Source: Bacteroidia bacterium (GTDB lineage Bacteria; Bacteroidota; Bacteroidia; Bacteroidales; VadinHA17). From it: a stretch of 32,197 bases of DNA. Positions 6,241 through 26,589 of the stretch are shown in pieces. The stretch's first letter is position 1. Every line of letters starts with the position of its first letter. Below the pieces are notes generated by a model. That model was not told where the DNA came from. It was given only the letters and a program-made list of their open reading frames with translations, and made no database searches. The DNA lies in contig JAPLDY010000224.1 of the NCBI GenBank assembly GCA_026391595.1, positions 1 to 32,197 of the forward strand. The letters run 5' to 3'. The position numbers were made by a program, and so were the translations under genes.

Positions 6241-6263
6241 ATTATTCTTCGTTTTCGATATTA

Positions 6264-8193: not shown

Positions 8194-11100
8194 TTATTCT
8201 ATAATAATCTTTCTAATAGCGAATTTCTTGTCTATGTCAATTTTAATCAGGTAATTGCCCCGAGGCAGTCCGGTCAAGTCTATCTGACTTGAAAAATAGT
8301 CAGAAAATTTCTCAAACTTAAAATTACGCAATTCTTTGCCATCAAGGCTAATAATTCCGGCCAATAAATCACCATATAAATTATTATCCATTTCAATTAT
8401 AAACAACCCTTTTGATGGATTTGGGTAGATTGTAAGGTTTGTAAAGATGTCAGGATTCTCAATCCCTGTCACCCCCGTTGGGATTGTTACAATATCGCTT
8501 CTTGTATAACATCCCTTGTCGTTAGCAATACTCACCTGGTAATCGCCCATCTTGCGATTGGCTACATAATAATATTTATCAGCTCCTTCTATCAGTTTTT
8601 CGTTGCAATACCACCTGTATTTTGAAGCAGAATCATTACTGCAGGCAAGGTACCAGAGAGTCGGTCCCTGAACAAAAATGTAAGGTTTTTCAGGGGTATC
8701 ATCAAAATATATATTTAGCTTATCGGAAAGGGATTTGCATCCGTTAAGGTCGGCTTCTACAGTATAATCACCCTGCAGAAGGAATCCTTCATAGTAAGAT
8801 GAAGTTGCGTTATTGACAGGCATTCCGTCCCTGTACCACTTATAAGAATATTCCGAAATTGCTTGATTGACAATCAACCTTACAGGCGTTTCTCCCGGAC
8901 ACTTCCCAGCCTGATAATTTTCGGAATTAATAGCAGGCTTAAACGGAACAGGCTTGACTGCGACAGTTACCAGAGATGATATGGTAATACAATTGCCGGC
9001 AGGATTAGCTACTTCAACCGAAAAGGAGCCGGAGAATTTTGGGACATAAATATTTGAATCTCCTTCAGTTATTGCAGTTCCGGCAACCATCCATTTGTAC
9101 GAATACCTGTTGTTATAAGTCACTGAAAGAGTTACACTATCTCCTTCGCAGAAATTAAGAGGCGCATTGGTTGTAATATCTGCAGTCGGATAATTCGCAA
9201 GAGTTACTGTTTTTATGATTGAATCTGCACATCCATTGGATGCAATAGCTTTCAGGCTGACAGAATAATCTCCGGCAATAAGATACCCATGGGGGGCAGG
9301 TTGACTGATATCTGATACCTGGCCATCGCCGAAATCCCATTTCCATGAAGTCATGTTTAGTCCAGTACAGTCAGTTGTATTTGTGATAGTTACAGGCGTT
9401 CCCTGGCAGGCTTCCAGGGCTGTGAATCCTGTAACAGGATGGGATTTTACAATAATATTCTTTGCAAGAGAATCCTTAGCTCCGCCGGTACTGGTAATTA
9501 CCAGCTTTACATAATAAGTTCCGCTTGCTGCATAAAAGTGAGTAGGATTCTGAACAGAAGACGTCAATCCATCTTTGAAATCCCATTTCCAGGATGCGAT
9601 GCCATCAGTGGCAACCGACTGATCTGTGAAATGAGTAGAATGCCCAAGGCAGACTGTATCCGCAGTATAGAATGTCTGGACATTCTTAACCTGAAAAGAA
9701 TCAACAGCCGACCAGTCTCCTCCTATATATCCCTGGTCAACAGCCTGGACGCTCCAGTAATATTTTCCAGATACCAGGTTTTTGATCAGAAAAATAGTGT
9801 CGAGCTCTGCGTTTCCCATTGCTGTTATCCTCCGGTAACCAGTTAAAGAGTCGGATTGAGCCGGGCATATATATGATCCATCCTGTGTTGAGATTACTTT
9901 CACATTGTAGGTCATTGATTCCCATGTTGTTTCATCTGTTTTTACAGGCGACCAGGTGAGCAAAATACCATTTGGCTGATGGAAAGCAAGCAATTTTTCG
10001 GGAGCTGAAGGCTTTTTATTAGCAGAATAATTTCCTGCCTTCATAAATGTATTGTTACTATAGACTTTTGGAAAGATCAACATATCCAGATCTCCATCGT
10101 TATCATAATCACCCCAGGCTGCAGAACTGTAAAACGCCCCCGTTAACGGGATGTCTGTTTGCCAGGTAAAGCTATTATTGCTGTTGTTTCGGTAGATTTT
10201 TGAAATTGGTTTGTAATTTTCATCACCTCCAGTTGAGCCTGTCAATAAAATATCCAGATCAACGTCGTTGTCGTAATCGCCCCAGGCTACAGAACTCATG
10301 TAGACATCTGTCAACGAAATGTTTGTTTGCTCGGTAAAGCTATTATCGCCGTTGTTGCGATAGACTCTGGAAAAATGTGAACCTGATAACAAAATATCCA
10401 GATCGCCATCGTTGTCATAATCGCCCCAGGCTACGGAACTCGATGCAATTCCTTTTAATGCAATACTGGTTTGCTCAGTAAAACTATTATCACCGTTATT
10501 GCGATAAACTTTTGAAATACCTTGTGAACCATTGTCACCTGTTAAAATAATATCCAGATCACCATCGTTGTCGTAATCACCCCATGCTACAGAACTCAAT
10601 GCAACTCCCGTTAGGGCAATACTGGTTTGTTCTGTAAAACTATTGTTCCCGTTGTTTCTGAAGATTTTTGAAATTCTTTGATTAGAATTATTTTGGCCAG
10701 TCAATAAAATATCCAGATAATCATCATTATCATAATCGCCCCAGGCTACGGAACCATAACCTACTCCATCTAAAACAATGCCGGTCTGTTCGGTAAAGCT
10801 ATTGTTTCCGTTATTTTTATAGATTTTAGAAATATAGCCTGATGCTGCAATCCCTGTCAATAAAATATCCAAATCGCCATCATTATCGTAATCACCCCAT
10901 GCAACTGAACCAGTAGATACATTTGTCAAATAAATGCTGGATTGTTCGGTAAAGCTATTATCGCCGTTATTACTGTAGACTTTAGAGACAGGACCTGAAC
11001 TTGCGTTACCAGTCACTAAAATATCCAGATAGCCGTCGTTGTTGTAATCACCCCAGGCTACGGAACTCAGATTGGTTCCTTCTAGTACAATGCCGCTCTG

Positions 11101-14100
11101 CTCTGAGAATAAGGATGAACTGAAAACTCCCGGATTTCCGTTTCCGATAGTTCTAAAATATTCCGGGAGGCCATTAATTTCAGTATATTCAATAACTTGT
11201 ATATCATAACTATAACCTTCTCCTAATCCGTAAATTATTACACTGTCGGCTATTCCGTTGTATAAACAATACCAGCCTGTATTACCTATTCTATTCCCTT
11301 TGCCAAAATATGGTTCTGCATGATAAATTGTACCATCAACGGGTTTTGCTCTCTCGGATGGTGATGAGAACCTTCCAAACAATGCTCGTCTTTTTCCATT
11401 CCCGTTCTTCCAGCGAATAAGGATTGAATTGGTATTTTTAATAACAGCCTGCAAATTGGTGGCCTGAATGGAATCTGCAGGCGTGATTTCTTCCGGGGCA
11501 AAACTACCTGCCAATCCGCCAATATCGACAGCCTGTACCGACCAGTAATATTTGTTTAATGGAAGCTTTAAGACAATGCAGGTATCATTTATCAGGTTTG
11601 GTATATTGGGTAAAAGAAGTTTCCCATCGTGCAAAGATTCTGCGGATTTTACCTCATTACCGCCGGGAGAAGTCCCTATACGCAAATTATAACTTATAGC
11701 TTTTGCAGGAGTAGTGTTGTCAGAAGATTTGTTCCATTTAAACAGTAAGCAATTATTATCCCAATATGATTGCAATCCTGCAGGATCAGATGGCTTAATA
11801 TTTGGATTTAGAATTTCATTCCGGTATATTTTTGAAATCCAGCCTGAACCCGAATCACCTGTCAGTAAAATGTCTAAGTCACTATCATTGTCGTAATCGC
11901 CACAAGCCATGGAACTATTAGAAACTCCTGCTAAGGTAATGCCAGTTTGCCAGGTAAAGGTATTGTCGCCGTTGTTACGGTAGATTTTAGAGATAGGATT
12001 GTAAGGATACTCTGCAGTGGAACCGGTCAAAAAAATATCCAGATCCCCATCGTTGTCGTAATCGCTCCAGGCTATGGAACTTTGGCAGACTCCTGTTAAT
12101 ATAATGCCGGTTTGCTCTGTAAAGCTATTGTCGCCGTTGTTACGGTAGATTTTGGAGACAGGATTATAATTTTGATAATCTCCACTTTCACCTGTCAATA
12201 AAATATCCAAATCGCCGTCGTTGTCGTAATCGCCCCAGGCTGAAGAACTTTTATAGACTCCCGTTAATGCAATATCGGCTTGTCCGGTAAAAGTATTGTC
12301 GCCATTGTTACGGTAGATTTTGGAAATGGGGTCTGACCTTGAATATCCGGTCAATAAAATATCCGGATCGCCGTCGTTGTCATAATCACCCCACGCAATA
12401 GAACTTTGGTAGACTCCCGTTAATACAATGCCGGTTTGATCAATAAAGCTATTGTCGCCGTTATTGCGGTAGATTTTAGAAATATTCTGATAAGAATTAT
12501 TCTGACCTGTCAATAAGATGTCCAGGTCGCCATCGTTGTCGTAATCGCTCCATGCTACAGAACCAAGACAGACTCCCGGTAATATAATATCGGTTTGTTC
12601 AGTAAAGCTATTATCACCATTGTTGCGATATATTTTAGAAATAGAATTGTATCTTTCATAGCCACCAGTGGCACCTGTCAATAAAATATCCAGATCCCCG
12701 TCATTATCATAATCACCCCATGCTACGGAACTATAATAAACTCCTGTTAACGCAATGCCAGTTTGCTCTGTAAAACTATTGTCGCCGTTATTGAGATAAA
12801 TTTTTGAAATGGAACCAGAACCTGTTAATAGAATATCAAAATCGCCGTCATTATTGTAATCGCCCAAGGCTGCAGAACTGTTCCTTACTCCTTTTAACTC
12901 AATGCTGGTTTGTTCCCCCAAAATGGTATTGAGTGCAGCCGGATTTTGATAAGTCGCAGATTTTAAATAATTTTCATTGGCAGCAGCCCCGTTGTATTCG
13001 CATACTTGCAGTAAATAAACTGTATTGATGACCAATCCGGTTAATGCAGCCAAATTGGAGGTTCCGTTGTATACACATTTCCAACCTCCGGGTGTAATAT
13101 CGTTAATATTGTAGGTGGTGTTATCTACCGGGTCTGCCATACCTGTTGCAGCAGCTTTAATAAAAACAGCACGTTTTGCCCCACCGCCGTTTGCCCATGT
13201 AGCAGTAGCCTGGGTTGCCTGCATGTTACTGAATGCTATACAATTAGCCTGTGTAACAGGTCTGTAAAAAGGCAGTGTGAAACTTTGTTCAGAGCTAAAA
13301 CTACCTCCTCTCAAACCGGCGTCCACTGCCTGCACTGCCCAATAATAGGTTTTACCCGGTGGCAGGTCTTTTATGGTATATCCTGATTGACTCCATTGAA
13401 TAGCTCCCGGTTTTGCGATTAATCGCCTGCCATTTTTTGAATCAGATTGTTTGAATGCATGTGGTGGGTTTTCGTATTTGATTTGTCCCTCTTCATAAAC
13501 ATATATATTATAGCTGAGTCCGTTTTGTGGCGTTTCGGTATCCAAAGGTTTGTCCCAGGTAAAAGTGACTACACCATTATTTGTTACGGCCTTTAAATTG
13601 GATGGTGTGGCAGGTTTGATATTCGGGGTAGCTGTTTCGTTGCGATAGATTTTCGAAATTTTTTGGCCAGCACTATTCTCGCCTGTCAGTAAAATATCCA
13701 GATCTTGGTCGTTATCGTAATCCCCCCACGCTATTGAACTATAAGATACTTCAGGCAACTCAATACCGGTTTGTTCAGTAAAAGTATTGTCGCCGTTGTT
13801 GCGATAAATTTTTGAAACAGGGCCTGAACCTGAATATCCGGTCCATAAAATATCCAGATCGCCATCGTTGTCGTAATCGCCCCAGGCTATTGAACCTAGT
13901 ATTACTCCCGGGAAAACAATGAGGGTTTGTCCTGTAAAGCTATTGTCGTTATTGTTGCGGAAGATTTTTGAAGTGTAACCTGAACCAGTCAATAGAATAT
14001 CCAGATCGCCATCGTTGTCGTAATCGCCCCAGGCTACGGAACTGTGATCCACTCCTGGCAACTCAATACCGGTTAGACTGGTAAAGCTATTGTCGCCATT

Positions 14101-14778
14101 GTTGTGATAAATTCTTGAAAACCCTAAACCTGTCAATAAAATATCCAGATCACCGTCATTATCATAATCGCCCCATGCTACTGAACCATTATCTACTCCA
14201 GTCAGAGCAATGCCGGTTTGCTCTGTAAAGGTATTGTCATCATTATTTCTGTAGATTTTGGAAATGAGGCCCGAACCTGACCAGCCGGTCAATAAAATAT
14301 CCAGATCGCCGTCGTTGTCGTAATCCCCCCAGGCTACGGAACTGGAAAACACTCCGGTTAACATAATACCGGTTTGTTCGGTAAAAGTATTGTCGCCGTT
14401 GTTACGATAGATTTTGGAAATTGGTCCCGAATTCGATTCTCCGGTCAATAGAATATCCAGATCACCGTCTTTGTCGTAATCGCCCCAGGTTGCGCAACTG
14501 TTACTTACTCCCGTTAAATTAATACCTGATTGTTCAGTAAAAGTACTGTCTCCATTGTTACGATAGATTTTAGAGATGGGGCCTGAACTTGAACTACCTG
14601 TCAATAAGATATCCAAATTACCGTCATTATCGTAATCGCCCCAGGCTACGGAACCAAAATTTACTCCTGTCAGAGCAATACCGGTTTGCTCAACAAATGT
14701 TTGAGAAAACAGGTTGAATGTTATCAATAAGAATACTAAAACTAAAACCTGTTTTCTCATAAGATATTTATTGATCAC
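8194..14778 (-). CDS. Giant T9SS-exported FG-GAP/VCBS repeat protein, copy 1 (three seven-blade propellers)
   Basis: 2194 residues. Signal peptide MRKQVLVLVFLLITFNLFSQ. The open frame starts at GTG 14778; ATG at 14760 gives an equally good signal. Propeller blocks of seven repeats each are at about 27-381, 621-988 and 1223-1583. Pairs of fibronectin-III-like domains fill 384-618 and 990-1222, with another at 1585-1695. PKD domains lie at about 1697-1860 (WKWDFKDG, WKWDFGDG). Ig-like domains follow to about 2105, then a type A sorting domain (LTIYPNPSKGLF, about 2114-2194). Nearly every blade carries DYDNDGDLD, the integrin-type Ca-binding DxDxDGxxD. It should be exported by T9SS to the cell surface. 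It is the first gene of a likely operon with the barrel protein and two small exported proteins. Ligand unknown. Confidence 0.92.
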   Translation of the reverse strand: MINKYLMRKQVLVLVFLLITFNLFSQTFVEQTGIALTGVNFGSVAWGDYDNDGNLDILLTGSSSSGPISKIYRNNGDSTFTEQSGINLTGVSNSCATWGDYDKDGDLDILLTGESNSGPISKIYRNNGDNTFTEQTGIMLTGVFSSSVAWGDYDNDGDLDILLTGWSGSGLISKIYRNNDDNTFTEQTGIALTGVDNGSVAWGDYDNDGDLDILLTGLGFSRIYHNNGDNSFTSLTGIELPGVDHSSVAWGDYDNDGDLDILLTGSGYTSKIFRNNNDNSFTGQTLIVFPGVILGSIAWGDYDNDGDLDILWTGYSGSGPVSKIYRNNGDNTFTEQTGIELPEVSYSSIAWGDYDNDQDLDILLTGENSAGQKISKIYRNETATPNIKPATPSNLKAVTNNGVVTFTWDKPLDTETPQNGLSYNIYVYEEGQIKYENPPHAFKQSDSKNGRRLIAKPGAIQWSQSGYTIKDLPPGKTYYWAVQAVDAGLRGGSFSSEQSFTLPFYRPVTQANCIAFSNMQATQATATWANGGGAKRAVFIKAAATGMADPVDNTTYNINDITPGGWKCVYNGTSNLAALTGLVINTVYLLQVCEYNGAAANENYLKSATYQNPAALNTILGEQTSIELKGVRNSSAALGDYNNDGDFDILLTGSGSISKIYLNNGDNSFTEQTGIALTGVYYSSVAWGDYDNDGDLDILLTGATGGYERYNSISKIYRNNGDNSFTEQTDIILPGVCLGSVAWSDYDNDGDLDILLTGQNNSYQNISKIYRNNGDNSFIDQTGIVLTGVYQSSIAWGDYDNDGDPDILLTGYSRSDPISKIYRNNGDNTFTGQADIALTGVYKSSSAWGDYDNDGDLDILLTGESGDYQNYNPVSKIYRNNGDNSFTEQTGIILTGVCQSSIAWSDYDNDGDLDIFLTGSTAEYPYNPISKIYRNNGDNTFTWQTGITLAGVSNSSMACGDYDNDSDLDILLTGDSGSGWISKIYRNEILNPNIKPSDPAGLQSYWDNNCLLFKWNKSSDNTTPAKAISYNLRIGTSPGGNEVKSAESLHDGKLLLPNIPNLINDTCIVLKLPLNKYYWSVQAVDIGGLAGSFAPEEITPADSIQATNLQAVIKNTNSILIRWKNGNGKRRALFGRFSSPSERAKPVDGTIYHAEPYFGKGNRIGNTGWYCLYNGIADSVIIYGLGEGYSYDIQVIEYTEINGLPEYFRTIGNGNPGVFSSSLFSEQSGIVLEGTNLSSVAWGDYNNDGYLDILVTGNASSGPVSKVYSNNGDNSFTEQSSIYLTNVSTGSVAWGDYDNDGDLDILLTGIAASGYISKIYKNNGNNSFTEQTGIVLDGVGYGSVAWGDYDNDDYLDILLTGQNNSNQRISKIFRNNGNNSFTEQTSIALTGVALSSVAWGDYDNDGDLDIILTGDNGSQGISKVYRNNGDNSFTEQTSIALKGIASSSVAWGDYDNDGDLDILLSGSHFSRVYRNNGDNSFTEQTNISLTDVYMSSVAWGDYDNDVDLDILLTGSTGGDENYKPISKIYRNNSNNSFTWQTDIPLTGAFYSSAAWGDYDNDGDLDMLIFPKVYSNNTFMKAGNYSANKKPSAPEKLLAFHQPNGILLTWSPVKTDETTWESMTYNVKVISTQDGSYICPAQSDSLTGYRRITAMGNAELDTIFLIKNLVSGKYYWSVQAVDQGYIGGDWSAVDSFQVKNVQTFYTADTVCLGHSTHFTDQSVATDGIASWKWDFKDGLTSSVQNPTHFYAASGTYYVKLVITSTGGAKDSLAKNIIVKSHPVTGFTALEACQGTPVTITNTTDCTGLNMTSWKWDFGDGQVSDISQPAPHGYLIAGDYSVSLKAIASNGCADSIIKTVTLANYPTADITTNAPLNFCEGDSVTLSVTYNNRYSYKWMVAGTAITEGDSNIYVPKFSGSFSVEVANPAGNCITISSLVTVAVKPVPFKPAINSENYQAGKCPGETPVRLIVNQAISEYSYKWYRDGMPVNNATSSYYEGFLLQGDYTVEADLNGCKSLSDKLNIYFDDTPEKPYIFVQGPTLWYLACSNDSASKYRWYCNEKLIEGADKYYYVANRKMGDYQVSIANDKGCYTRSDIVTIPTGVTGIENPDIFTNLTIYPNPSKGLFIIEMDNNLYGDLLAGIISLDGKELRNFKFEKFSDYFSSQIDLTGLPRGNYLIKIDIDKKFAIRKIIIE
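10029..11112 (-). repeat. Copy 1, propeller block 3: seven FG-GAP repeats
   Basis: Seven coding tandem repeats of about 48-57 codons. Frame: TFTEQTGIxLTGV, then xxSSVAWGDYDNDGDLD, then ILLTG, a variable loop, and SKIYRNNGDN. Deviating Ca loops: DYDNDDYLD in blade 3 and DYDNDVDLD in blade 6. Blade 7 is shortened (LDMLIFPKVYSNNTF) and closes the block before the fibronectin domain. Confidence 0.88.
11815..12918 (-). repeat. Copy 1, propeller block 2: seven FG-GAP repeats
   Basis: Seven repeats. Blade 1 starts after the fibronectin pair (EQTSIELKGV) and blade 7 ends in IYRNEILNPN, the block-closing variant in which NNGDN is replaced by NE. Loop insertions after LLTG reach about 12 residues (for example ATGGYERYNSI). 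Confidence 0.88.
13636..14700 (-). repeat. Copy 1, propeller block 1: seven FG-GAP repeats
   Basis: Seven repeats directly after the signal peptide. Blades 4 and 5 have the shortest loops (LTGLGFSRIYHNN; LTGSGYTSKIFRNN). Blade 7 has a Gly-to-Gln change in the Ca loop (DYDNDQDLD) and ends in IYRNETATPN. Confidence 0.88.
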
Positions 14779-14790
14779 GATCAGGTTTTA
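14702..14790 (-). promoter_or_regulatory. Leader/start-codon inverted repeats of copy 1 (alternative hairpins)
   Basis: In the transcribed (minus) strand, three segments can pair. A is TAAAACCTG in the leader (14790-14782). B contains the ATG and CAGGTTTTA (14759-14743). C is AACCTGTTTTCTCA in the signal-peptide codons (14715-14702). A and B form a 9-base perfect stem with the start codons in a 30-base loop. B and C form a 14-base perfect stem that buries the ATG, also with a 30-base loop. The two share CAGGTT in B and so exclude each other. Whether they fold in vivo is not known. Confidence 0.45.
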
Positions 14791-14801
14791 ATAAATAGTT
14801 A

Positions 14802-14833
14802 CAAAATTTACTACAATTTTCAGCTGAAAGCAA
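14802..14833 (-). promoter_or_regulatory. Promoter of copy 1
   Basis: The reverse strand reads TTG (14833-14831), 20 bases, then TAAATTTTG (14810-14802), close to the Bacteroidota -33/-7 pattern (TTG, about 20 bases, TAnnTTTG) with one extra base in the -7 box. The same sites with the same spacing precede copies 2 and 3. The spacer contains the perfect palindrome TTTCAGCTGAAA, which is not conserved in copy 3. Confidence 0.55.
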
Positions 14834-14845
14834 GTTTTTAACAGC

Positions 14846-16471
14846 TTATTCCACTACAAGTTTCCTCGCAGCAAAATACTTCTCGATCATCAGATTAATG
14901 ATATACATCCCATTCGCCTGCCCGCTCAGATCGATCTGGCTTGAAAAGTGCTCTGTTGTCTTTTCAAATTTTATACTCAGTATATCATTACCGTCTTCAG
15001 TAATTATCTTTATCAGAAGCTCTCCAAATACATTATTGTCCATCTCAACTGTAAACATACCCGGAGTAGGATTGGGGTATATCTGCAGTCCTTTAAATGG
15101 ATCTATGTCATTAATCCCTGTCACGCCCGTTGGGATTGTCACAATATCGCTTCTTGTATAACATCCTTTGTCGTTGGCTATACTCACCCGGTAATCGCCC
15201 ATCTTACGATTGGCTACATAATAATATTTATCGGCACCATCTATCAGTTTTTCGTTGCAATACCACTTGTATTTTGAAGCTGAGTCGTTACTGCAGGCAA
15301 GGTACCAGACAGTCGGTCCCTGGACAAAAATGTAAGGTTTTTCAGGAGCATCATCAAAATATATAATTAGCTTATCGGAACGTGATCTGCATCCGTTAAG
15401 GTCGGCTTCTACAGTATAATCACCTTGCAGAAGGAATCCTTCATAGGAAGATGAGGCTGCGTTATTGACAGGCATTCCGTCCCTGTACCACTTATAAGAA
15501 TATTCCGAGACTGTTTGATTGACAATCAACCTGACCGGCGTTTCTCCCGGGCACTTTCCAGCCTGGTAATTTTCGGGAATGATAACAGGCTTAAACGGGA
15601 CAGGCTTGACTGCGACAGTTACCGGAGATGATGTGGTAATACAATTACCGGCAGGGTTAGCTACTTCAACCGAGAAGGAGCCGGAGAATTTTGGGACATA
15701 AATATTTGAATCTCCTCCAGTTATTGCAGTTCCGGCAACCATCCATTTGTACGAATACCTGTTGTTATAGGTCACTGAAAGAGTTACACTGTCGCCTTCA
15801 CAGAAATTAAGAGAAGCGCTGGTTGTGATCTCTGCCGTCGGATAATTCGCAAGAGTTACTGTTTTAATGATTGAATCTGCACATCCATTGGATGCAACAG
15901 CTTTCAGGCTGACAGGATAATATCCGGCCATAAGATACCCATGGGGGGCAGGCTGACTGATATCTGATACCTGGCCATCACCGAAGTCCCATTTCCATGA
16001 GACAATGCTTAATCCATTATTATCTGTTGTATTATTGATAGTTACAGGCGTTCCCTGGCAGGCTTCCAGGGCTGTGAAACCTGTAACAGGACGGGATTTT
16101 ACAATAATATATTTTTCAAGTGAATCTTTAATTCCACCGGTACTGGTAATTACCAGCTTTACATTATAAGTTCCGCTTGCTGCATAAGAGTGAGTAGGAT
16201 TCTGAACAGAAGACATCAATCCATCTTTGAAATACCATTTCCAGGATACGATGCCATCAGTGGCAACCGACTGATCCGTGAAATGAGTGGTATGTCCAAG
16301 GCATACTGTATCAGCAGTATAGAATGTCTGGACATTCTTAACCTGAAAAGAATCAACAGCCGACCAGTCTCCTCCCAGGTATCCCTGGTCAACAGCCTGT
16401 ACGCTCCAGTAATATTTTCCAGAGCTCAGGTTTTTAATTATAAAAGTTGTATCCAGTTGAGTGTTTCCCAT
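14846..16471 (-). CDS. Orphan C-terminal part of FG-GAP repeat protein copy 2 (after frameshift)
   Basis: 541 residues without a signal peptide. It begins in the middle of a fibronectin-III-like domain (first Met in AMGNTQLDTTF). Two PKD domains follow (VSWKWYFKDG, SWKWDFGDG), then Ig-like domains and a type A T9SS sorting domain (LQIYPNPTPGMF to ARKLVVE). It continues copy 1's stalk at very high identity, so it is the missing 3' part of the gene at 16434-21194 in the other frame. An in-frame TAG lies just upstream of the ANGYRQIAAMGN codons. On its own it cannot be exported and is probably not made, unless frameshifting or an undetected sequence error joins the two parts. Confidence 0.8.
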   Translation of the reverse strand: MGNTQLDTTFIIKNLSSGKYYWSVQAVDQGYLGGDWSAVDSFQVKNVQTFYTADTVCLGHTTHFTDQSVATDGIVSWKWYFKDGLMSSVQNPTHSYAASGTYNVKLVITSTGGIKDSLEKYIIVKSRPVTGFTALEACQGTPVTINNTTDNNGLSIVSWKWDFGDGQVSDISQPAPHGYLMAGYYPVSLKAVASNGCADSIIKTVTLANYPTAEITTSASLNFCEGDSVTLSVTYNNRYSYKWMVAGTAITGGDSNIYVPKFSGSFSVEVANPAGNCITTSSPVTVAVKPVPFKPVIIPENYQAGKCPGETPVRLIVNQTVSEYSYKWYRDGMPVNNAASSSYEGFLLQGDYTVEADLNGCRSRSDKLIIYFDDAPEKPYIFVQGPTVWYLACSNDSASKYKWYCNEKLIDGADKYYYVANRKMGDYRVSIANDKGCYTRSDIVTIPTGVTGINDIDPFKGLQIYPNPTPGMFTVEMDNNVFGELLIKIITEDGNDILSIKFEKTTEHFSSQIDLSGQANGMYIINLMIEKYFAARKLVVE

Positions 16472-19400: not shown

Positions 19401-21194
19401 GTGCAGCAAATAATCTGTATTTTGAACTAATCCGGTTAATACTACAGAATTGGCAGTCCCGTTATAAACACATTTCCAGCCATTGGGTGTAAGATCGTTA
19501 ACATTATAGGTGGTATTGTCCACAAGGTCGGCTATGCCTGTGTTGGCAGCTTTAATAAAAACAGCACGTTTATTCCCGCCACCGTTAGCCCAGGTTGCAG
19601 TAACCTGGGTTGCCTGCATATTACTTAATGCAATGCAATTTGCCTGTGTTACAGGCCTGTAAAAAGGTACTGTAAAGCTCTGTTCGGCACTAAAATTGCT
19701 GCCCTGCAAACCAGCATCCACTGCCTGCACCGTCCAAAAGTAGGTTTTATCGGGAGGCAGGTCTTTTATGGTGTACCATGAAGGGCTCCACTGGATATTT
19801 CCCGGGTTAGCGATTAATCGTTTGCCATTTTTTATATCTGCCTGCTTAAATGCATATGGAGGACATTCATAATTAGCTTGTCCGTTTTCATATATATATA
19901 AATTATAACTAAGTCCTTTCTGTTGTGTTTCTGTATCCGAAGGCTTATCCCAGATAAAAGTAACAGTACCGTTATTAATTATGTTCTGTAAATTGTAAGG
20001 TGTGGCAGGTTTGACATTGGGTGTGGATGTTTCGTTGCGGTAAATTTTAGAAACAGGACCTGATCCGGTTTCACCTGTCAATAAAATATCCAGATCTCCG
20101 TCGTTGTCGTAATCTCCCCAGGCTGCGGAACTGTGTGATACTCCTGTTAAGTCAATGCCGGTTTGTTCGGTGAAACTATTGTTACCGTTGTTCAGGTAGA
20201 TTTTGGAGCAACGGCCTGATCCAGTTTCACCAGTCAATAAGATATCCAGATCACCATCGTTGTCATAGTCGCCCCAGGCTACTGAACTGTAATATACTCC
20301 TGTTAAGTTAATACCTGTTTGCCGGGAGAAGGTATTGTCACCATTGTTCTGGTAGATCTCAGATACTCCGTTTGGATATTTATTTCCGGTCATAATAACA
20401 TCCAGATAACCATCATTATTGTAATCCCCCCAGGCTACCGAACTGTAAGCCACTCCCTCAAGGTTAATAATGGTCTGCTCGGTAAATGAATTATCGATAT
20501 TATTGCGGTATATTTTGGAAATAGCAGTCCCTGAGGTGTTATAACCTGTTAATAAAACATCCAGAAATCCATCGTTATCATAGTCGCCCCAGGATACGGA
20601 CCCTCGTTGTACTCCTGTTAATGCAATGCCGGTTTGCTCTGTAAAACTATTATTGCCATTGTTACTGTATATTTTGGAAACAGGGTTTGAACCTGACCAG
20701 CCGGTCAATAAAACATCCTGATCGCCATCATTATCATAATCGCCCCAGTCTGTGGAGCTATCTGAAAGGCCAGTTAATTCGATGCCGGTTTGCTCCGTGA
20801 AAGTACTGTCACCATTATTATTGTAGATTTTTGAAATGTAGCCCGAACTTAAAGAACCGGTTAATAAAATATCAATGTCTCCGTCGTTGTCGTAATCGCC
20901 CCATGAAGCGGAACCATGGTATACTCCAGGTAAAACGATGCCGGTTTTTTCGGTAAAGCTATTGTCTCCATTGTTACGATAGATTTTAGAGACAGGACCT
21001 GACTCTGACCATCCGGTTAAAAAAATATCCAGGTCACCGTCGTTGTCATAATCTCCCCAGGCCACTGAACCGCCTCCTACTCCTGTTAATACAATGCTGG
21101 TTTGTTCGACAAATGTTTGAGAAAACAGGTTAAATGTTATCAATAAGAATACTAAAACTAAAACCTGTTTTTTCATAAGATATTTTTTGATCAC
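16434..21194 (-). CDS. Giant FG-GAP/VCBS repeat protein copy 2, truncated by frameshift before stalk and sorting domain
   Basis: 1586 residues. The open frame starts at GTG 21194; ATG at 21176 is an alternative. Signal peptide KKQVLVLVFLLITFNLFSQ is identical to copy 1 from KQV on. Propeller blocks of seven repeats lie at about 27-388 and 628-993; fibronectin pairs at 390-625 and 995-1226. Block 3 (1227-1565) has six full blades and a seventh cut after SSIA, followed by 21 out-of-frame residues (CKRISPDSGDG...) and a stop. The product would reach the periplasm but lacks PKD/Ig stalk and the sorting domain, so T9SS export is not expected. The restored gene would closely match copy 1 in architecture. 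Own promoter and leader are present. Confidence 0.87.
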   Translation of the reverse strand: MIKKYLMKKQVLVLVFLLITFNLFSQTFVEQTSIVLTGVGGGSVAWGDYDNDGDLDIFLTGWSESGPVSKIYRNNGDNSFTEKTGIVLPGVYHGSASWGDYDNDGDIDILLTGSLSSGYISKIYNNNGDSTFTEQTGIELTGLSDSSTDWGDYDNDGDQDVLLTGWSGSNPVSKIYSNNGNNSFTEQTGIALTGVQRGSVSWGDYDNDGFLDVLLTGYNTSGTAISKIYRNNIDNSFTEQTIINLEGVAYSSVAWGDYNNDGYLDVIMTGNKYPNGVSEIYQNNGDNTFSRQTGINLTGVYYSSVAWGDYDNDGDLDILLTGETGSGRCSKIYLNNGNNSFTEQTGIDLTGVSHSSAAWGDYDNDGDLDILLTGETGSGPVSKIYRNETSTPNVKPATPYNLQNIINNGTVTFIWDKPSDTETQQKGLSYNLYIYENGQANYECPPYAFKQADIKNGKRLIANPGNIQWSPSWYTIKDLPPDKTYFWTVQAVDAGLQGSNFSAEQSFTVPFYRPVTQANCIALSNMQATQVTATWANGGGNKRAVFIKAANTGIADLVDNTTYNVNDLTPNGWKCVYNGTANSVVLTGLVQNTDYLLHVCEYNGAPGNENYLRTAVYQNPAVFNTIFGEWSDIKLTGLRNSSVAWGDYDNDGDLDILLTGGYSYSDRFSKIYRNNGDNNFAEQTDIVLKAVDFSSVAWGDYDNDGDLDILLTGATTFDPFSPVSKIYRNDGSNSFTEQTGFVLTGVFYSSVAWGDYNNDGDLDILLTGSSSSGPVSKVYRNNGDNTFTEQIGIALEAVFMSSVAWGDYDNDGDPDILLTGHTGLKPVSKIYRNNGDNSFTEQAGIELPEVYYSSVTWGDYNNDGDLDILLTGYTDSAYISKIYRNNGNNSFTEQTGIPLAGVYISSTAWGDYDNDGDLDILLTGSTDDNPYNPVSKIYRNNGDNSFTEQTGINLTKVNNSSVAWGDYDNDGDLDILLTGNSYSDIVSKLFRNEIATQNIKPSTPAGLQSYLDNNCIVFKWNKSSDNTTPTSAISYNLRIGTSPGGNEVKSGQSLANGKLLLPVINNLINDTCIVLTLPLNKYYWSVQAVDKGGLASSFASEEITPVDSIQAKDLQAFIKTSNSILIRWKNGNGLRRALFGRFSSSAEPAKPANGTIYHAEPYFGQGDKIGATDWYCMYNGKADSTIIYGIGEGYSYDIQVFEYTEINGLPEYFNTVGIGNPGIFSSSLYSEQTSIALAGVIESSVAFGDYDNDGYLDILLTGHNSTATYGSVSISKIYHNNGDNTFAEQTGIALTGVQFSSVAWGDYDNDSDLDILLTGYSGSGSVSKIYRNNGNNSFTEQTDIILTGVYASSVSWGDYDNDGDLDILLTGSAGDLAYNYNPVSKIYRNNGDNNFVEQTGILLTGVYWSSAAWGDYDNDGDLDILLTGLDNTNQSISKIYRNNGDNTFTEQSGIALTEVQRGSVAWGDYDNDGDLDILLTGSGISKIYRNNGDNSFTEQTGLALTGVYSSSVAWGDYDNDGDLDILLTGQKYPGELSKIYRNNGNNSFTEQTGIVLTGVYWSSIACKRISPDSGDGKHSTGYNFYN
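16495..16503 (-). other. Deletion/frameshift junction inside copy 2
   Basis: Reading the minus strand, blade 7 of block 3 runs normally to GVYWSSIA (codons ending at 16501), where every other blade continues WGDYDNDG. Instead the sequence jumps at about 16498 into ANGYRQIAAMGN of the following fibronectin domain, in a different frame. Aligning both flanks to copy 1 (10115 and 9846) implies a loss of about 270 bases, not a multiple of three. The joint shares only a few bases (CAG), so it is not a repeat-to-repeat crossover. Confidence 0.8.
16499..17513 (-). repeat. Copy 2, propeller block 3: six complete FG-GAP repeats and one truncated
   Basis: Blades 1-6 are complete; blade 1 has DYDNDGYLD and a long loop (HNSTATYGSVSI). 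Blade 5 has the shortest loop of the array (LLTGSGISKIYRNN). Blade 7 is cut by the junction at about 16498. Confidence 0.87.
18216..19313 (-). repeat. Copy 2, propeller block 2: seven FG-GAP repeats
   Basis: Seven repeats. Blade 1 begins GEWSDIKLTGLRN, matching GEQTSIELKGVRN of copy 1 block 2 in position. Blade 4 has DGDPD in the Ca loop, also seen in blade 4 of copy 1 block 2, so blade order is colinear between the copies. Ends in LFRNEIATQN. Confidence 0.87.
20031..21116 (-). repeat. Copy 2, propeller block 1: seven FG-GAP repeats
   Basis: Seven repeats after the signal peptide. Ca loops vary at position 7 (DGDQD, DGFLD, DGYLD). Ends in the block-closing IYRNETSTPN, nearly the same as copy 1 block 1. 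Confidence 0.87.
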
Positions 21195-21206
21195 GATCAG
21201 GTTTTA
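21118..21206 (-). promoter_or_regulatory. Leader/start-codon inverted repeats of copy 2
   Basis: Same arrangement as copy 1. Leader TAAAACCTG (21206-21198) pairs with CAGGTTTTA (21167-21159) across a 30-base loop. The ATG-containing segment (21175-21162) pairs with AACCTGTTTTCTCA (21131-21118) with one mismatch, caused by AAA instead of AGA at the codon after ATG. Confidence 0.42.
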
Positions 21207-21217
21207 ATAAATAGTTA

Positions 21218-21249
21218 CAAAATTTACTACAATTTTCAGCTGAAGGCAA
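21218..21249 (-). promoter_or_regulatory. Promoter of copy 2
   Basis: TTG (21249-21247), 20-base spacer, TAAATTTTG (21226-21218) on the minus strand. The 67-base gap between copies 3 and 2 is almost identical to, and the same length as, the gap between copies 2 and 1, showing that the duplication unit included the promoter. Confidence 0.55.
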
Positions 21250-21261
21250 GTTTTTAACAGC

Positions 21262-24200
21262 TTATTCCACTACAAGTTTCCTCGTAGCGAAATACTTATC
21301 AATCAGCAGATTAATAATATACAAGGCCTTCGCCTGTCCGCTCAGATCTATCTGGCTTGAAAAATGCTCCGTTGTCTTTTCAAACTTGATACTCAGTATA
21401 TCTTTACCATCTTCAGTGATTATCTTTATCAGAAGATCTCCAAAGACATTGTTATCCATCTCAACTGTAAATATACCCGGAGTAGGATTGGGGTATATCT
21501 GCAGTCCTTTAAATGGATCGATGTCATTAATTCCTGTCACACCCGTCGGGATTGTTACAATATCACTTCTTGTATAACATCCCTTGTCGTTGGCAATACT
21601 CACCCGGTAATCACCCATTTTACGATTGGCAACATAATAATATTTATCAGCTCCTTCTAAAAGCCTATCGTTGCAATACCATTTGTATTTTGAGGCAGTG
21701 GTGTTACTGCATGCAAGATACCATACCGTTGGTCCCTGGACATATATCATTGGTTTTTCAGGCGCTTCAGGGAAACTAATACTGAATATATCAGATTCCG
21801 ATTTACATCCGCTCAGGCTTGCTTCAAGTTTGTAATTCCCCTGTTCAAACAGTTCAAGGTTTGACAGAGTCTCATTCTGAATCGGTAATCCGTCCTTGTA
21901 CCATAAATATTGGTATTCAGGTACGTTCTGACTGGCATTCAACCTGATTATGTTCTCTCCAGGACAATTACCTGCTTCATAATTAACAGACTCAATAACA
22001 GGCTTATATGGAGATGGTTTAACGACTACATTAACAGAAGATGTTTTTACAGAACACCCTGATGAATTGGATATTTCAAGCTGGTATGTGCCGGAAAGAT
22101 CAGTGATATAGCTGTTTGTACTTTCATCTGAGATCAATCCGTATTCGTCTCTCCAGTTGTAGTTGTATCCGGTTGTTGAAGGTACGCTGAGGGTAACTGA
22201 GCCTCCCTGGCAGAAAATTGATGGTCCGCTGAGGCTTATATTACTGACGGATGGAAGCGGATGAACAGTTACATCAATGGAGTTTGTTGAGGCAACAGAA
22301 CAACCATTTGCATTTGAGACAACCAGGTTATAATTACCGCTGTTTTTAGCAACAAATTGTGGAGAGTTAGATCCTACAGCTCCACCATTTAGTTTCCACT
22401 GGTAAGTATAACCTGCAGTATTTGTCACACTCAATGCAACAGAATCGCCCTGGCAGAATTGTATTGGGCCACTTGCAGAGATGTATGGGGACACAGGAAT
22501 CGGATTAACTGTCACATTTGTCTGACCTGATGTTGAAATGCAATTTGCCAGTGAATTTGAAACCTTTATTGAATAAGCTCCTGAATTTGCTTTTACAACA
22601 TATAAGTTGGTATCGGAGTTAACCAGATCATTGTTATCCAGTTTCCATTGGTAAGTATAAAGTGGATTATGATCAACAAGAAGTTGGACACTGTCTCCCT
22701 TGCAGAAAGTCGTCTTTCCGTTTACAGAGATAGCAGAATTTGGAATTGCAGCCACAATAACTTCTTTGGTTATACTGTCAGCGCAGCCATTATTTGCAGT
22801 TGCTTTAAGTTTTGTCTGATAAGCACCTTTAAGCGAGAATATATGTGTGCCGGGATCCTTGACAGTCGCATTTTGGGAATTATCTCCGAAATCCCACAAC
22901 CAGCTGGTTATTGTTAATCCATTAACTGTAGTGGAGTTAGTAATTGTGGTTACAATCCCTTCGCAAACATTTGGAGCTGTATATGATGTGATTGGACGTG
23001 CTTTAACGATTACATTCTGTTCAAGAGAGTCTTTGTCACCGACAGTACTTGTAATAATAAGTTGGACATCATAAATGCCACTTGCGGCAAAGGTATGTGA
23101 TGGATTTTGTATTGTTGAGTATGAACCATCTTTGAAGTCCCATTTCCATGAAGCTATACCATCGGTAGCAACAGACTGATCGGTAAAATGAGTTGGTAAT
23201 CCCTGACAAACAGTATCTGTTTTAAAGAAAGCTTGAGTGTTTTTGACGATAAATGAATCAACTGCAGACCATGCCCCTCCGGCATATCCCTGGTCGACAG
23301 CCTGAACCTGCCAGTAATATATCCCTGGCGATATATTTTTTAAAATGAAGCTATTATTTAACTGCATATTTCCAATAGCTGGTATACGCCTGAAACCATT
23401 ATCTGCTGAATTAGGAGCAGGTTTCCAACCGGATAAATCCTGTTTTTTATACCGCAGATTATAACTGATAGTATGTGCAGAAGTTTCATCACCCATAACT
23501 TCAGACCATGATAGTTTAATGCTACCAGGAGTTCTTATACTTATCAAACCGTTTGGTGCGCGGGGTTTGTTGTTAGGCTTATTTAAACCAGTTTCCGTTA
23601 TTAAATTGTTATTGTAGATTTTAGTTATTCTGTTTGCACTTTCATCTTGTCCAGTCAATAAAATATCCAGAGTACCATTGTTGTCATAGTCACCCCAGGC
23701 AACAGAGCCTGACCTGACACCTTTTAGTAAAAAATCAGTCTGTTCAGTAAATGTATTGTCACTATTGTTGTGGTAGATTTTGGAATAAAAACCTGAAAAA
23801 TCAGTACCAGTTAATAAAATATCCAGATACCCATCATTATCATAATCACCCCAGGCCGCAGAGCTATAATTAACAGCTGCTAATAAAATGCCTGTTTGTT
23901 CAGTAAAAGAGTTATCACCATTGTTGCAGTATATCTTGGAAACCGGTCCCGAATCCGAATTACCTGCCAATAAAATATCCAAATCACTATCGTTATCGTA
24001 ATCACCACAGGCAACTGAACTCCTCGCAACACCAGTTAAATAAATACCGGTTTGTTCAGTAAAGGTTTTGTCGCCATTATTACGATAGATTTTAGATATA
24101 CTTTTATTATTTATATCATTACCTGTCAGTAAAATATCTAAATATCCATCGCTATTGTAATCACCCCAGGCAACTGATCCAAGGTAGACACCAGTTAATG

Positions 24201-26589
24201 AAATATCAGGTTGTTCAGTAAACGTACCATTTCCATTGTTGTGGTAGATCTTGGATATTCTGTTGTTATTTATATCATAGCCAGTCAATAAAATATCTAT
24301 ATATCCATCGTTATCGTAATCACCCCAGGCAACTGAACTACTGCTGACAGCAGTCAACGAAATTCCCGTTTCTTCGATAAAGGTATAATTGCCATTATTA
24401 CGGTAGATCTTTGAAATTGGATTGTAATTTGGAGAAGCACCTGTTGCACCTGTCAGGATAATGTCCAGATCTCCGTCATTATCATAGTCACCCCAGGCAG
24501 CGGAGCCCAGACCTGCTCCTGTTAATGAGTTACCAGTTTGTTCTGAAAAGGTACGATCCCCATTATTCCGGTAAATCTTCGAAATATCATTGTAATTTGG
24601 AGAAAGACCTGTAGAGCCTGTAATTAAAACGTCAAGATATCCATCGTTATCATAATCGCCCCAGCAAACAGAACTTGACCATATATTATCAATTGTGATG
24701 CCTGGCTGCTCGCTGAATAATGCAGTGGTAAATACCCCCATATTTTTTGAAGAAAGGGTTGGCGCATATATTTCTGAACCATTCTGACCTTCAAATTCAA
24801 TGGCCTGGATTATATAATTTTTCTGTGGATTTAATCCGCTTACCAAAACAGAATCGGCATCACCTTTATAGATGCAATACCAGCCTGTTGGTCCAAGTGG
24901 CGAACCTTCAGCAAATACCGGATTATAAAAATAGGTAGAATAATTTTGCGGACTGGCAGTTCCGGAAGTTCCTTCCTTTGCAAAAAGGATGCAACGATCA
25001 CCATTCCCTCTCTTCCACTTTAGAATCAGAGAGCTTTTGCTGTAGTATTTAGCATTTAGGCCAGAGGGTTGAATGGGAGTTGCTGAGAATTGAATCTCAT
25101 CAGAGAATGCGCCTCCCTTAAACGAATTATCTATTGCCTGCACACTTGAATAATAAAGCGTATCCCAGCGTATATCTTTAAATAAGAAGATTGTATCGAG
25201 TTGATTATTACCCATTGCAGCTATTCTCCTGAATCCGGTTGATGCAGACTGAGATGATACAAAATCAGAACCTCCGCTTTTTCTGCCAACTCTGATATTG
25301 TAGGTTATTGATTTTGAGCAAGTCTCATCAGTTGTGACCTTGTTCCATTTTAAAATCGCTGTTGTGTTCCGGATTTCAGAAGTCAGATTTTTAGGCTGAT
25401 CGGGATTCTTATTAATTTTTATACAGTTATTTATATAAATTTTGGAGATCCTGTTACTATTTGCATCTTGTCCTGTTAATAGAACATCAAGATCCCCGTC
25501 GTTATCATAATCGCCCCAGGCACCTGAACTATTGGTGACAGCAGGTAAGGAAACTCCCGTTTCTTCTGTGAAGCTATTATTGCCATTATTACGATAGATT
25601 TTGGAAATTGGGTATGAGCTTGTACTTCCGATCAATAGAAAATCCAGGTCACCATCGTCATCATAATCACCCCAGGCAACGGAACCATTTTGAGTGCCAG
25701 GTAATGTAATGCTGGTCTGTTCGATAAAGATGCCATTACCAATGTTGCGGTATATCTTTGAATAAGTCTGGAAATATGGAGCATTGGCATAACCAGTTAA
25801 TAAAATATCCAAATAGCCGTCGTTATCGTAATCACCCCAGGCCGCTGAACAATTAGATACACTAGTTAATGAAAGACCGGTGAGTTCGGTAAAGGTATTA
25901 TCACTATTATTTCTGTAGATTTTAACTCTCGCGGTTGAACTGTAACCAGACATCAGGATATCCAGGTCGCCATCATTATCATAATCGCCCCAGGCAACTG
26001 AGCTACTGCTGATAGCAGTTAAAGAAATTCCCGTTTCTTCGGTGAAGTTATAATTACCATTGTTGCGGTAAATTTTGGAAACAGGACCGGAAACTGATGT
26101 ACCTGTTAATAAAATATCCAGATAGCCATCGTTATCATAATCGCCCCAGGCAACTGAGCTAGTATAAACTCCTGTAAGTGACATGCCAGTTTGTTCGGTA
26201 AAGGAATTATTACCATCGTTGCGGTAAATTTTTGAAATTGGATTATAATTTGGGCTATATCCTGTAGCTCCAGTCAGAAGAATATCAAGATCAGCGTCGT
26301 TATCATAATCACCCCAGGCAATTGAACCTTTATTAATGCCCGGTAATGAAATACCAGTTTGCTCCGTGAAAGTATTATTGCCATTATTGCGGTAAATTTT
26401 AGTCATTAATGAACCTGTGATTAATATATCCAGGTAACCATCATTGTCATAATCTCCCCAGGCAACTGAGCTATTATCAACTCCGGATAATGATATACCT
26501 GAATCGATAAAAGTTTGAGGCCAAAGATTTACTGTTATCAAGAATAAGAAGAAAACTAAAACCTGTTTTTTAAGAAGATATTTATTCAT
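21262..26589 (-). CDS. Giant T9SS-exported FG-GAP/VCBS repeat protein, copy 3 (two propellers, long Ig stalk)
   Basis: 1775 residues. Start ATG 26589 gives signal peptide MNKYLLKKQVLVFFLFLITV then NLWPQ. Seven-repeat blocks are at about 26-389 and 625-996, with a fibronectin pair at 390-622 and one more at 1005-1113. PKD domains are at about 1115-1282 (WKWDFKDGS, WLWDFGDNS). Three consecutive Ig-like domains with the motif FCxGxSVxLxV (about 1283-1526) replace the single one in copies 1 and 2. Two further Ig-like domains and a type A sorting domain (LQIYPNPTPGIF, 1695-1775) follow. It is the most diverged copy in the propellers, yet its last 90 residues are almost identical to copy 2. First of the array with respect to transcription; likely a surface-exposed, calcium-binding adhesin-like protein. 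Ligand unknown. Confidence 0.92.
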   Translation of the reverse strand: MNKYLLKKQVLVFFLFLITVNLWPQTFIDSGISLSGVDNSSVAWGDYDNDGYLDILITGSLMTKIYRNNGNNTFTEQTGISLPGINKGSIAWGDYDNDADLDILLTGATGYSPNYNPISKIYRNDGNNSFTEQTGMSLTGVYTSSVAWGDYDNDGYLDILLTGTSVSGPVSKIYRNNGNYNFTEETGISLTAISSSSVAWGDYDNDGDLDILMSGYSSTARVKIYRNNSDNTFTELTGLSLTSVSNCSAAWGDYDNDGYLDILLTGYANAPYFQTYSKIYRNIGNGIFIEQTSITLPGTQNGSVAWGDYDDDGDLDFLLIGSTSSYPISKIYRNNGNNSFTEETGVSLPAVTNSSGAWGDYDNDGDLDVLLTGQDANSNRISKIYINNCIKINKNPDQPKNLTSEIRNTTAILKWNKVTTDETCSKSITYNIRVGRKSGGSDFVSSQSASTGFRRIAAMGNNQLDTIFLFKDIRWDTLYYSSVQAIDNSFKGGAFSDEIQFSATPIQPSGLNAKYYSKSSLILKWKRGNGDRCILFAKEGTSGTASPQNYSTYFYNPVFAEGSPLGPTGWYCIYKGDADSVLVSGLNPQKNYIIQAIEFEGQNGSEIYAPTLSSKNMGVFTTALFSEQPGITIDNIWSSSVCWGDYDNDGYLDVLITGSTGLSPNYNDISKIYRNNGDRTFSEQTGNSLTGAGLGSAAWGDYDNDGDLDIILTGATGASPNYNPISKIYRNNGNYTFIEETGISLTAVSSSSVAWGDYDNDGYIDILLTGYDINNNRISKIYHNNGNGTFTEQPDISLTGVYLGSVAWGDYNSDGYLDILLTGNDINNKSISKIYRNNGDKTFTEQTGIYLTGVARSSVACGDYDNDSDLDILLAGNSDSGPVSKIYCNNGDNSFTEQTGILLAAVNYSSAAWGDYDNDGYLDILLTGTDFSGFYSKIYHNNSDNTFTEQTDFLLKGVRSGSVAWGDYDNNGTLDILLTGQDESANRITKIYNNNLITETGLNKPNNKPRAPNGLISIRTPGSIKLSWSEVMGDETSAHTISYNLRYKKQDLSGWKPAPNSADNGFRRIPAIGNMQLNNSFILKNISPGIYYWQVQAVDQGYAGGAWSAVDSFIVKNTQAFFKTDTVCQGLPTHFTDQSVATDGIASWKWDFKDGSYSTIQNPSHTFAASGIYDVQLIITSTVGDKDSLEQNVIVKARPITSYTAPNVCEGIVTTITNSTTVNGLTITSWLWDFGDNSQNATVKDPGTHIFSLKGAYQTKLKATANNGCADSITKEVIVAAIPNSAISVNGKTTFCKGDSVQLLVDHNPLYTYQWKLDNNDLVNSDTNLYVVKANSGAYSIKVSNSLANCISTSGQTNVTVNPIPVSPYISASGPIQFCQGDSVALSVTNTAGYTYQWKLNGGAVGSNSPQFVAKNSGNYNLVVSNANGCSVASTNSIDVTVHPLPSVSNISLSGPSIFCQGGSVTLSVPSTTGYNYNWRDEYGLISDESTNSYITDLSGTYQLEISNSSGCSVKTSSVNVVVKPSPYKPVIESVNYEAGNCPGENIIRLNASQNVPEYQYLWYKDGLPIQNETLSNLELFEQGNYKLEASLSGCKSESDIFSISFPEAPEKPMIYVQGPTVWYLACSNTTASKYKWYCNDRLLEGADKYYYVANRKMGDYRVSIANDKGCYTRSDIVTIPTGVTGINDIDPFKGLQIYPNPTPGIFTVEMDNNVFGDLLIKIITEDGKDILSIKFEKTTEHFSSQIDLSGQAKALYIINLLIDKYFATRKLVVE
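23602..24720 (-). repeat. Copy 3, propeller block 2: seven FG-GAP repeats
   Basis: Seven repeats starting LFSEQPGITIDNI. Loops containing INNNR, INNKS or SPNYN are typical of copy 3. One blade has DYNSDGYLD and the last has DYDNNGTLD in the Ca loop. Ends in KIYNNNLITET. Confidence 0.87.
25423..26514 (-). repeat. Copy 3, propeller block 1: seven FG-GAP repeats
   Basis: Seven repeats after the signal peptide. The first is short (TFIDSGISLSGV) and blade 6 has DYDDDGDLD. Ends in KIYINNCIKI before the fibronectin domain. Confidence 0.87.

Follow-up and report, generated by a model that had tools for sequence, protein, structure and literature searches.

What stays constant and what changes in an array of giant propeller proteins is the question raised by a stretch of 32,197 nucleotides (the window, meaning the whole DNA analysed) on contig JAPLDY010000224.1 of a Bacteroidia bacterium. 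Three paralogous open reading frames, named C, B and A in the order of transcription, lie on the minus strand between positions 8194 and 26589 and encode eight blocks of FG-GAP repeats, with exactly seven repeats in 7/8. An earlier note on this DNA had described three neighbouring giant paralogues; the paralogy was confirmed, but gene B was found to be split by an apparent deletion, and therefore only A and C are complete. Our preferred explanation, to which we assign a probability of about 0.62, is that the array encodes multivalent binders exported to the cell surface by the type IX secretion system (T9SS), with calcium-stabilised rings that are diversified through whole modules at a fixed blade number.

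Blade number in the array and in its relatives

The Pfam family FG-GAP_3 matched the three genes with E = 2.8e-150 (A), 6.5e-151 (B) and 4.1e-105 (C), at 344.8-491.5 bits against a curated cut-off of 26.9; the regularity of the repeats is far beyond chance. The other Pfam families found across the array were fn3, PKD_4, Ig_7 and Por_Secre_tail, and 54 of the 59 FG-GAP_3 matches in the home genome (E <= 0.001) fall within the array. Gene C (21262..26589; 1775 amino acids) carries two rings of seven blades by hidden Markov model (HMM) count (ring 1, 25426..26517; ring 2, 23605..24723), FN3 linkers, two PKD domains, an Ig-like domain and a T9SS sorting tail (PF18962; 21268..21498, E 5.9e-10). The same kinds of domain make up gene A (8194..14778; 2194 amino acids), with three seven-blade rings at 13636..14706, 11815..12930 and 10048..11115 (the last by HMM count) and a sorting tail at 8200..8430 (E 7.3e-11). 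The 5' piece of gene B (16434..21194; 1586 amino acids) holds ring 1 (20031..21122) and ring 2 (18216..19325), both with seven blades by HMM count, and ring 3 (16500..17516), in which six blades are followed by the start of blade 7; the frame is lost past a deletion. All elements of the array given here are on the minus strand.

The counts of 7, 7, 7 in A, 7, 7 in C and 7, 7 in B agree with those of the earlier note. A regular-expression count overlooked one repeat of B with F in place of W, which was recovered by a recount with a position-specific scoring matrix (PSSM), and the HMM count takes the cut blade of B ring 3 as a seventh. With the W of WGDY numbered 0, the calcium loop of the uncut blades (Dx[DN]xDG type) has D at +2 and +10 in 55/55 and at +6 in 54/55, and D or N at +4 in 55/55. 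Fibronectin pairs had been proposed between the rings: the linkers do contain FN3, but a single FN3, not a pair, stands behind the last ring, and the second domain of the linker pairs is mostly under the Pfam cut-offs and was assigned from predicted strands.

A closed seven-blade ring was predicted by AlphaFold2 for A ring 1, modelled with one extra flanking residue and an alignment of 94 of the 151 available blocks, at a mean pLDDT (predicted local distance difference test) of 97.3 and a pTM (predicted template modelling score) of 0.94; this is the closure that the earlier note had expected. In the model, a strand at residues 5-7 lies ahead of blade 1 and the last blade has its own three strands, which fits a one-plus-three closure. 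The strand that starts the block, as the outer strand of blade 7, would close each ring, so that each block would consist of seven three-strand units plus that strand. When the model was compared end to end by VIA-align, it matched CRTAC1 (Z 31.7, rmsd, root-mean-square deviation, 2.8 Å, 353 residues), LGI1 (Z 29.6) and integrin alphaV (26.1), all of them seven-blade rings, and PVL-type lectins took ranks 2-6 in Foldseek. CRTAC1 was also the closest solved protein by sequence (E 5.6e-7; 5e-13 with the alignment, where integrins came next). Closure was thus predicted for A ring 1 by itself and for A ring 2 as part of a two-ring model, the other blocks being assigned by count, and the predictor may favour closed rings for any repeats of this kind.

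In relatives of the same genus, seven blades were found in 55/56 blocks (16 open frames, six genomes), while the number of rings per open frame was 2, 3, 4, 5 or 13. The remaining block, in a diverged gene, was counted as six, with a degenerate seventh calcium loop readable by eye. Inside this clade, therefore, neither a prediction that fails to close at seven blades nor a freely varying repeat number was found. The frame with the most rings (7591 amino acids) belongs to genome G012 and holds 13 seven-blade rings. Behind it, a single in-frame TAA lies inside an FN3 linker, and past that TAA 2743 amino acids with four more rings and a T9SS tail motif follow in frame, the whole lying at G012:C31:30369-61373 (L100/L101/L102); a nonsense change, an error and read-through are the candidates for this stop.

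The HMM count replaced the regular-expression and PSSM counts, which overlooked diverged blades in the genes of genome G014. Duplicate contigs (L002-L007, L021, L026, L028, L053) and frames with fewer than 3 or 4 HMM hits were left out before counting, and the contig tally leaves out blocks with a best blade of <15 bits and 10 contig-edge blocks. As more distant loci, the top 80 (79 distinct) of 573 confirmed stretches were taken, ranked by their resemblance to a seven-blade query, a choice that biases the wider tally in favour of seven. There, 82 of the 94 complete blocks were counted as seven. Four of the other 12 are abutting rings with totals of 14, 15, 20 and 21, and four more (L070, L094 twice, L099) are seven by HMM alone; a block of L072 was counted as nine (HMM six plus two), and in L073 (~9900-10170) an in-frame stop splits the first blade from the other six of a seven-blade block. 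Other loci gave seven in 10/11 blocks and eight in one (seven by HMM alone). The HMM alone, uncorrected for contig edges and missed blades, gave seven in 92/130 block pieces of 91 other frames. Pooling HMM hits with calcium loops automatically over- or undercounts the distant loci L010, L070, L094 and L099 (seven by HMM alone), and the close-clade tally is therefore the one relied on.

Against an unbroken rule stand two clean exceptions, judged by eye: a block of six blades in Melioribacteraceae (L030:3552-9095) and one of four blades in Calditrichaceae (L027:8957-12763). A strict seven everywhere does not hold, and because of these exceptions farther away seven blades per ring is a strong but not an absolute rule. 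Both short blocks have FN3-like flanks; they could be genuine small rings, could pair with another ring, or could be products of assembly collapse.

Change by whole genes, rings and linkers

At the junction in gene B (16495..16503), ~90 codons (~270 bases) present in gene A are missing near 16500, with a frameshift: the homology to gene A runs to about residue 1554 and starts again from about 1645. The gap takes out the remainder of blade 7 and the greater part of the FN3 behind it, and 21 out-of-frame residues precede a stop. The downstream piece (14846..16471; 541 amino acids), with the end of the FN3, two PKD domains, the Ig-like domain and the T9SS tail, retains the stalk and tail in a different reading frame. 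The six repeats plus a truncated seventh reported for the eighth block were seen again, but given the apparent deletion and frameshift they represent a damaged seven-blade ring and not a natural variant. A natural six-plus-half ring was ruled out, since homology resumes in the other frame inside the next FN3. An assembly error in place of a real deletion would be conceivable for a contig that contains repeats and comes from a genome in 265 pieces; we hold it to be unlikely, because the junction is outside long repeats, has few bases at most common to both sides, and presumably offers too short a shared stretch for a graph assembler to collapse.

Gene B is also a mosaic. The 67-base spacer between C and B (21195..21261) is identical at 66/67 positions to the 67-base spacer between B and A (14779..14845), and the spacer and 5' end of gene B have 97% identity to gene A. 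Its stalk is 88-93% identical to that of A, its ring-and-linker body just 63-81%, and from ~15.1-15.2 kb to the end it is 90-98% identical to C and <=59% to A. In windows of 100 columns across the crossover zone (15111..15311), which is gene-A-like before and gene-C-like after, A-B identity drops from 92 to 59% as B-C identity climbs to 90-98%. Because the 5' end and stalk match A and the 3' end matches C, the simplest history would be an unequal crossover in which the tails of A and C recombined, so that gene B arose and the order became C-spacer-(A/C hybrid)-spacer-A; the head of B would later have diverged or been replaced.

Linkers are common to different genomes by position. Linker 1 of gene A (12931..13635; FN3 and FN3-like) is closest to the first linkers of gene B, G012_L103 and G025_L110, at 57-76% identity within the group (57-63% between genomes); a second type unites the first linker of C, the second linkers of L103 and G025, and the first of L025a at 65-71%. 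The next matches of both types are at 36-46%. Linker 2 of gene A (11116..11814) is close only to linker 2 of gene B (81%) and has no such partner in another genome (next 37-42%). Less in keeping with inheritance by position, the linkers of the 13-ring frame, L104, L112 and L113 are mostly closest to linkers of their own gene, which indicates that modules are copied and exchanged as well. Within the 13-ring frame, blades of the same index in neighbouring rings share 66.3% identity vs 62.6% for different indices (0/2000 permutations), so these rings were duplicated whole; the excess mostly fades with ring distance.

Selection on ring size, which we infer, has to be weighed against passive inheritance, in which the blades would be too diverged to recombine and seven would persist with no ongoing selection. 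Whole-ring duplication copies seven blades together, and the longest identical DNA stretch of adjacent blades has a median of merely 14 bases and a maximum of 41. Blade DNA is ~54-80% identical (ring pairs compared). Since the repeats are so diverged, the argument of the earlier note that seven was kept despite DNA prone to slippage carries little weight. On the other side, the blades of gene A match those of gene B only weakly by position (71.6 vs 70.4%, permutation p 0.028), and their four-fold site identity is below that of the interring linkers (120/277 vs 89/156, Fisher p 0.007), which suggests that blades may have been exchanged at constant number; a faster substitution rate in blades would give a similar pattern. 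Identity comparisons excluded the cut blade in ring 3 of gene B. Four-fold identity was 43-47% within A, 39-44% within B and 43-44% between them (random ~31-33%), and this comparison found no gene-specific homogenisation of blades in A and B. Across species the index signal is weak (G012_L103 vs G025_L110, 65.4 vs 64.3%, p 0.03), and C vs L103 blades gave none (p 0.51). We consider passive inheritance improbable and prefer selection on ring size.

The genomic order around the ring genes recurs in relatives: a caspase-domain gene, the ring genes, an outer-membrane protein, two small genes and mutL. The full order is present in G012, with one additional gene between the caspase and ring genes, and in G025, with one ring-less gene ahead of the outer-membrane gene. 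L023 has the same order over a stretch that does not reach mutL. In G014, contig L105 has the order without the caspase gene, and a caspase gene adjoins a ring gene on contig L108; in L025, only the outer-membrane gene is conserved, between two ring genes. As the order recurs in part or whole, these loci represent one syntenic site at which ring genes vary in number and size.

Variable positions and a possible binding face

NCBIfam recovered the T9SS tail reported by the earlier note and classed it as type A in gene A, in gene C and in the 3' piece of gene B; the 5' piece is without it. A signal peptide is visible by eye on A, C and the 5' piece of B, and none was seen by eye on the 3' piece. 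Profile searches of the genome found SprA (SprA_N, E 3.2e-185), the T9SS sortase (1180.9 bits) and 26 sorting tails over the cut-off, which makes it likely that the array proteins are exported by T9SS and attached to the cell surface. The head would consist of seven-blade FG-GAP rings, stabilised by calcium and strung together through FN3-type linkers, and the PKD/Ig stalk with its type A sorting tail would anchor it on the outer membrane.

Sequence entropy of the array blades was 3.3-3.6 bits at positions -11, -6, -5 and +16 and 0-1.1 bits in the calcium-loop region (0 to +15), and the turn after +16 ranges in length from 0 to 11 residues. Seven frames from relatives gave much the same profile, reaching 2.0 bits at position +8. 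By propeller topology, one face would carry the connecting segment together with the B-C turn, and the other the A-B calcium loop. In the lectin AAL2, residues of the connecting segment and of the 2-3 loop form the sugar pocket, and the cations occupy the 1-2 loops (PMC4483166); by analogy, the hypervariable positions look to lie on the sugar-binding side of AAL2/PVL lectins. The ligands would probably be glycans or surface proteins, bound on the side that is made up of the blade-to-blade connecting segment and of the turn that follows strand B, with the calcium-loop side nearly fixed. Avidity and specificity would shift by gain, loss and swap of whole ring-plus-linker modules and whole genes, driven by recombination between paralogues, with blade number unchanged.

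The four positions were picked in the window and tested elsewhere, in proteins with young blades from L024 (Chloroflexota), L035 (Cyanobacteriota), L027 (Calditrichaceae), L036 and L048 (Planctomycetota); these are all those with synonymous divergence <0.40 and at least 5 usable blades among the first 45 frames listed, and -11 was dropped from the later codon-position test. At -6, -5 and +16, codon positions 1 and 2 differ by 0.62-0.71, vs 0.17-0.35 at four-fold sites elsewhere, with the excess found in 300/300 bootstraps for each protein, and the third positions of the same codons differ by 0.38-0.62, below positions 1 and 2. The ratio of nonsynonymous differences to pooled synonymous differences (pN over pooled pS) was 1.84-2.17 at these three positions and 1.09 at -9. 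We read this as a signal of diversifying change at -6, -5 and +16 in five scattered relatives from other phyla.

Several observations weigh on the other side. In the five young proteins, -11 fails the diversifying test (pN over pooled pS 0.62), and the four chosen codons set against their own pS reach just 1.05-1.38. In the window, where synonymous divergence is nearly saturated, pN/pS at the four hypervariable codons was 0.80 (A), 0.90 (B) and 1.02 (C), with no signal of positive selection, and 0.50-0.87 for pooled pairs (elsewhere 0.16); pairwise counting over non-independent pairs is a crude measure of pN/pS. Loops vary in any propeller, and the assignment of faces comes from propeller topology and from the lectin paper rather than from measured coordinates. 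The two-ring model (alignment of 41 of 61 pairs) has a pLDDT of 90 but a pTM of 0.60, so that it does not fix the placement of one ring relative to the other. Most of the named relative genomes are, moreover, metagenome assemblies.

The multivalent ligand binding suggested by the earlier note therefore gains from hypervariability on the sugar side of lectins and from the signal in five relatives, but not from the blades of the window, and it would remain the conditional part of the explanation. In a bolder and less probable version, the family would form a bacterial recognition repertoire, a counterpart in calcium blades to the WD40 system hnwd of fungi, with seven small hypervariable patches (-6, -5, +16) around each ring mouth under diversifying selection and a repertoire whose size is set by the number of whole rings and genes at the locus; G012 has 17 rings in one frame apart from a single stop.

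Alternatively, the rings could be structural spacers forming a rigid, calcium-hardened rod or a surface-layer element, with loop variation from relaxed constraint. The calcium loop is indeed the conserved part, pN/pS at the hypervariable codons of the window is ~1 or less, and the variation in ring number has no obvious pattern; against it, codon positions 1 and 2 at -6, -5 and +16 change more than four-fold sites and more than their own third positions in the five younger relatives, and a related seven-blade lectin holds its ligand at the same side. We regard the spacer explanation as rather doubtful and retain that of surface binders. Enzymatic heads (a polysaccharide lyase or other catalysis, like the propeller rhamnogalacturonan lyases and aldos-2-ulose dehydratase) are very improbable. 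Aldos-2-ulose dehydratase was among the best structural matches in VIA-align (Z 30.0), but the residues that are invariant or nearly so across 94 blocks belong to the calcium loop and the core and recur identically from blade to blade. No catalytic Pfam family scored over its cut-off in gene A or in either piece of gene B, and gene C gave only a non-catalytic chitinase N-terminal domain, 1.4 bits over the cut-off.

Neighbouring genes and known propellers

The outer-membrane beta-barrel protein (6264..8189, minus strand) adjoins the ring genes in relatives too. With two small secreted-looking genes it forms a trio at 4754-8189 that comes after the array in several genomes, and by eye its members have short similar stretches in common. 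The caspase-domain protein (Peptidase_C14; 26929..28758, plus strand) looks secreted and has a DUF11/CARDB region; homologues occur near ring genes in G025, G002, G014 (L108) and L023, and the G012 copy is cut by the end of the stretch. It could be a partner of the ring proteins. A protein of 1088 amino acids at 28812-32078, by eye like a propeller sensor with a phosphatase-like C-terminus, has a homologue after the caspase gene in G025 and L023. Between the ring and outer-membrane genes of G025, a gene of 1445 amino acids (L110:11111-15445) matches the stalk and tail, and no FG-GAP block was detected in it; it is perhaps another head on the same stalk. Two adjoining multi-spanning membrane proteins at 130-1760 are rhomboid-protease-like by eye.

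Neither the fold nor the tandem arrangement of rings nor the duplication of blades is new (PMC3192720, PMC3123361, PMC9218822). Bacterial FG-GAP/VCBS propellers of the integrin type have seven blades with one calcium site per repeat, and two tandem copies have been reported (PMC3192720, PMC8023676). The array has the same seven repeats with one site each, but differs in its two or three rings per gene, FN3 linkers, PKD/Ig stalk and T9SS tail, and its relative G012 reaches 13 rings (plus four past one stop). Npun_R4253 of Nostoc punctiforme, with three tandem seven-bladed calcium-blade propellers, is described as the most extensive case in 2011 (PMC3123361); its tandem rings are alike, and the G012 frame has 13 rather than three. 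A survey of highly repetitive propellers reports ongoing duplication of VCBS-like units and a continuum of blade numbers, with a median of 6 for the highly repetitive VCBS-like ones (PMC9218822), whereas in the array and its relatives the blade count of a ring hardly changes and duplication involves entire rings. With the integrin alpha subunit, the array has the ring fold alone in common.

PVL and AAL2 resemble the array in their seven-blade ring, calcium in the 1-2 loops and repeats offset by one strand from the blades. These lectins have one pocket per blade in six of the seven blades, and the pocket residues of AAL2 are conserved between blades (PMC4483166), unlike the hypervariable region of the array; identity is ~20%. 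A sugar-pocket Asn/Asp and Trp conserved in each blade would mark the lectin family; the connecting segment of the array, whose positions were not mapped onto AAL2 by structural alignment, has no conserved Trp. A few hypervariable codons per WD40 blade at the interaction surface, and repeat exchange within and between paralogues, are described for het-d/het-e (hnwd) of Podospora (PMC1805685, PMC2873952). Both traits are like those of the array; hnwd differs in that it has a WD40 fold, with repeats that are highly conserved and vary in number, and is part of a HET-NACHT protein. A variable number of highly similar repeats of the hnwd type was not found in the array and its relatives, where seven is nearly fixed and repeat identity is lower.

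The open-access literature, with subscription journals outside the scope, yielded no paper on giant FG-GAP proteins with PKD and T9SS. As far as these searches show, the T9SS architecture that carries 2-13 rings per frame at a single syntenic site, the putative origin of one array gene as a mosaic and the apparent three-codon diversifying pattern are new. Two questions that are often run together for repeat proteins are separated by these results: the number of repeats per fold, which is nearly fixed, and the number of folds per protein, which expands at a single syntenic site. Should the hypervariable patches bind ligands, the family would offer a natural collection of rings stabilised by calcium, in which the scaffold stays constant while one face varies, and a bacterial parallel, open to testing, to the recognition systems of fungi. 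The three-codon signal in five scattered proteins would offer a direct mutational target for the ligands of the widespread and little characterised FG-GAP proteins.

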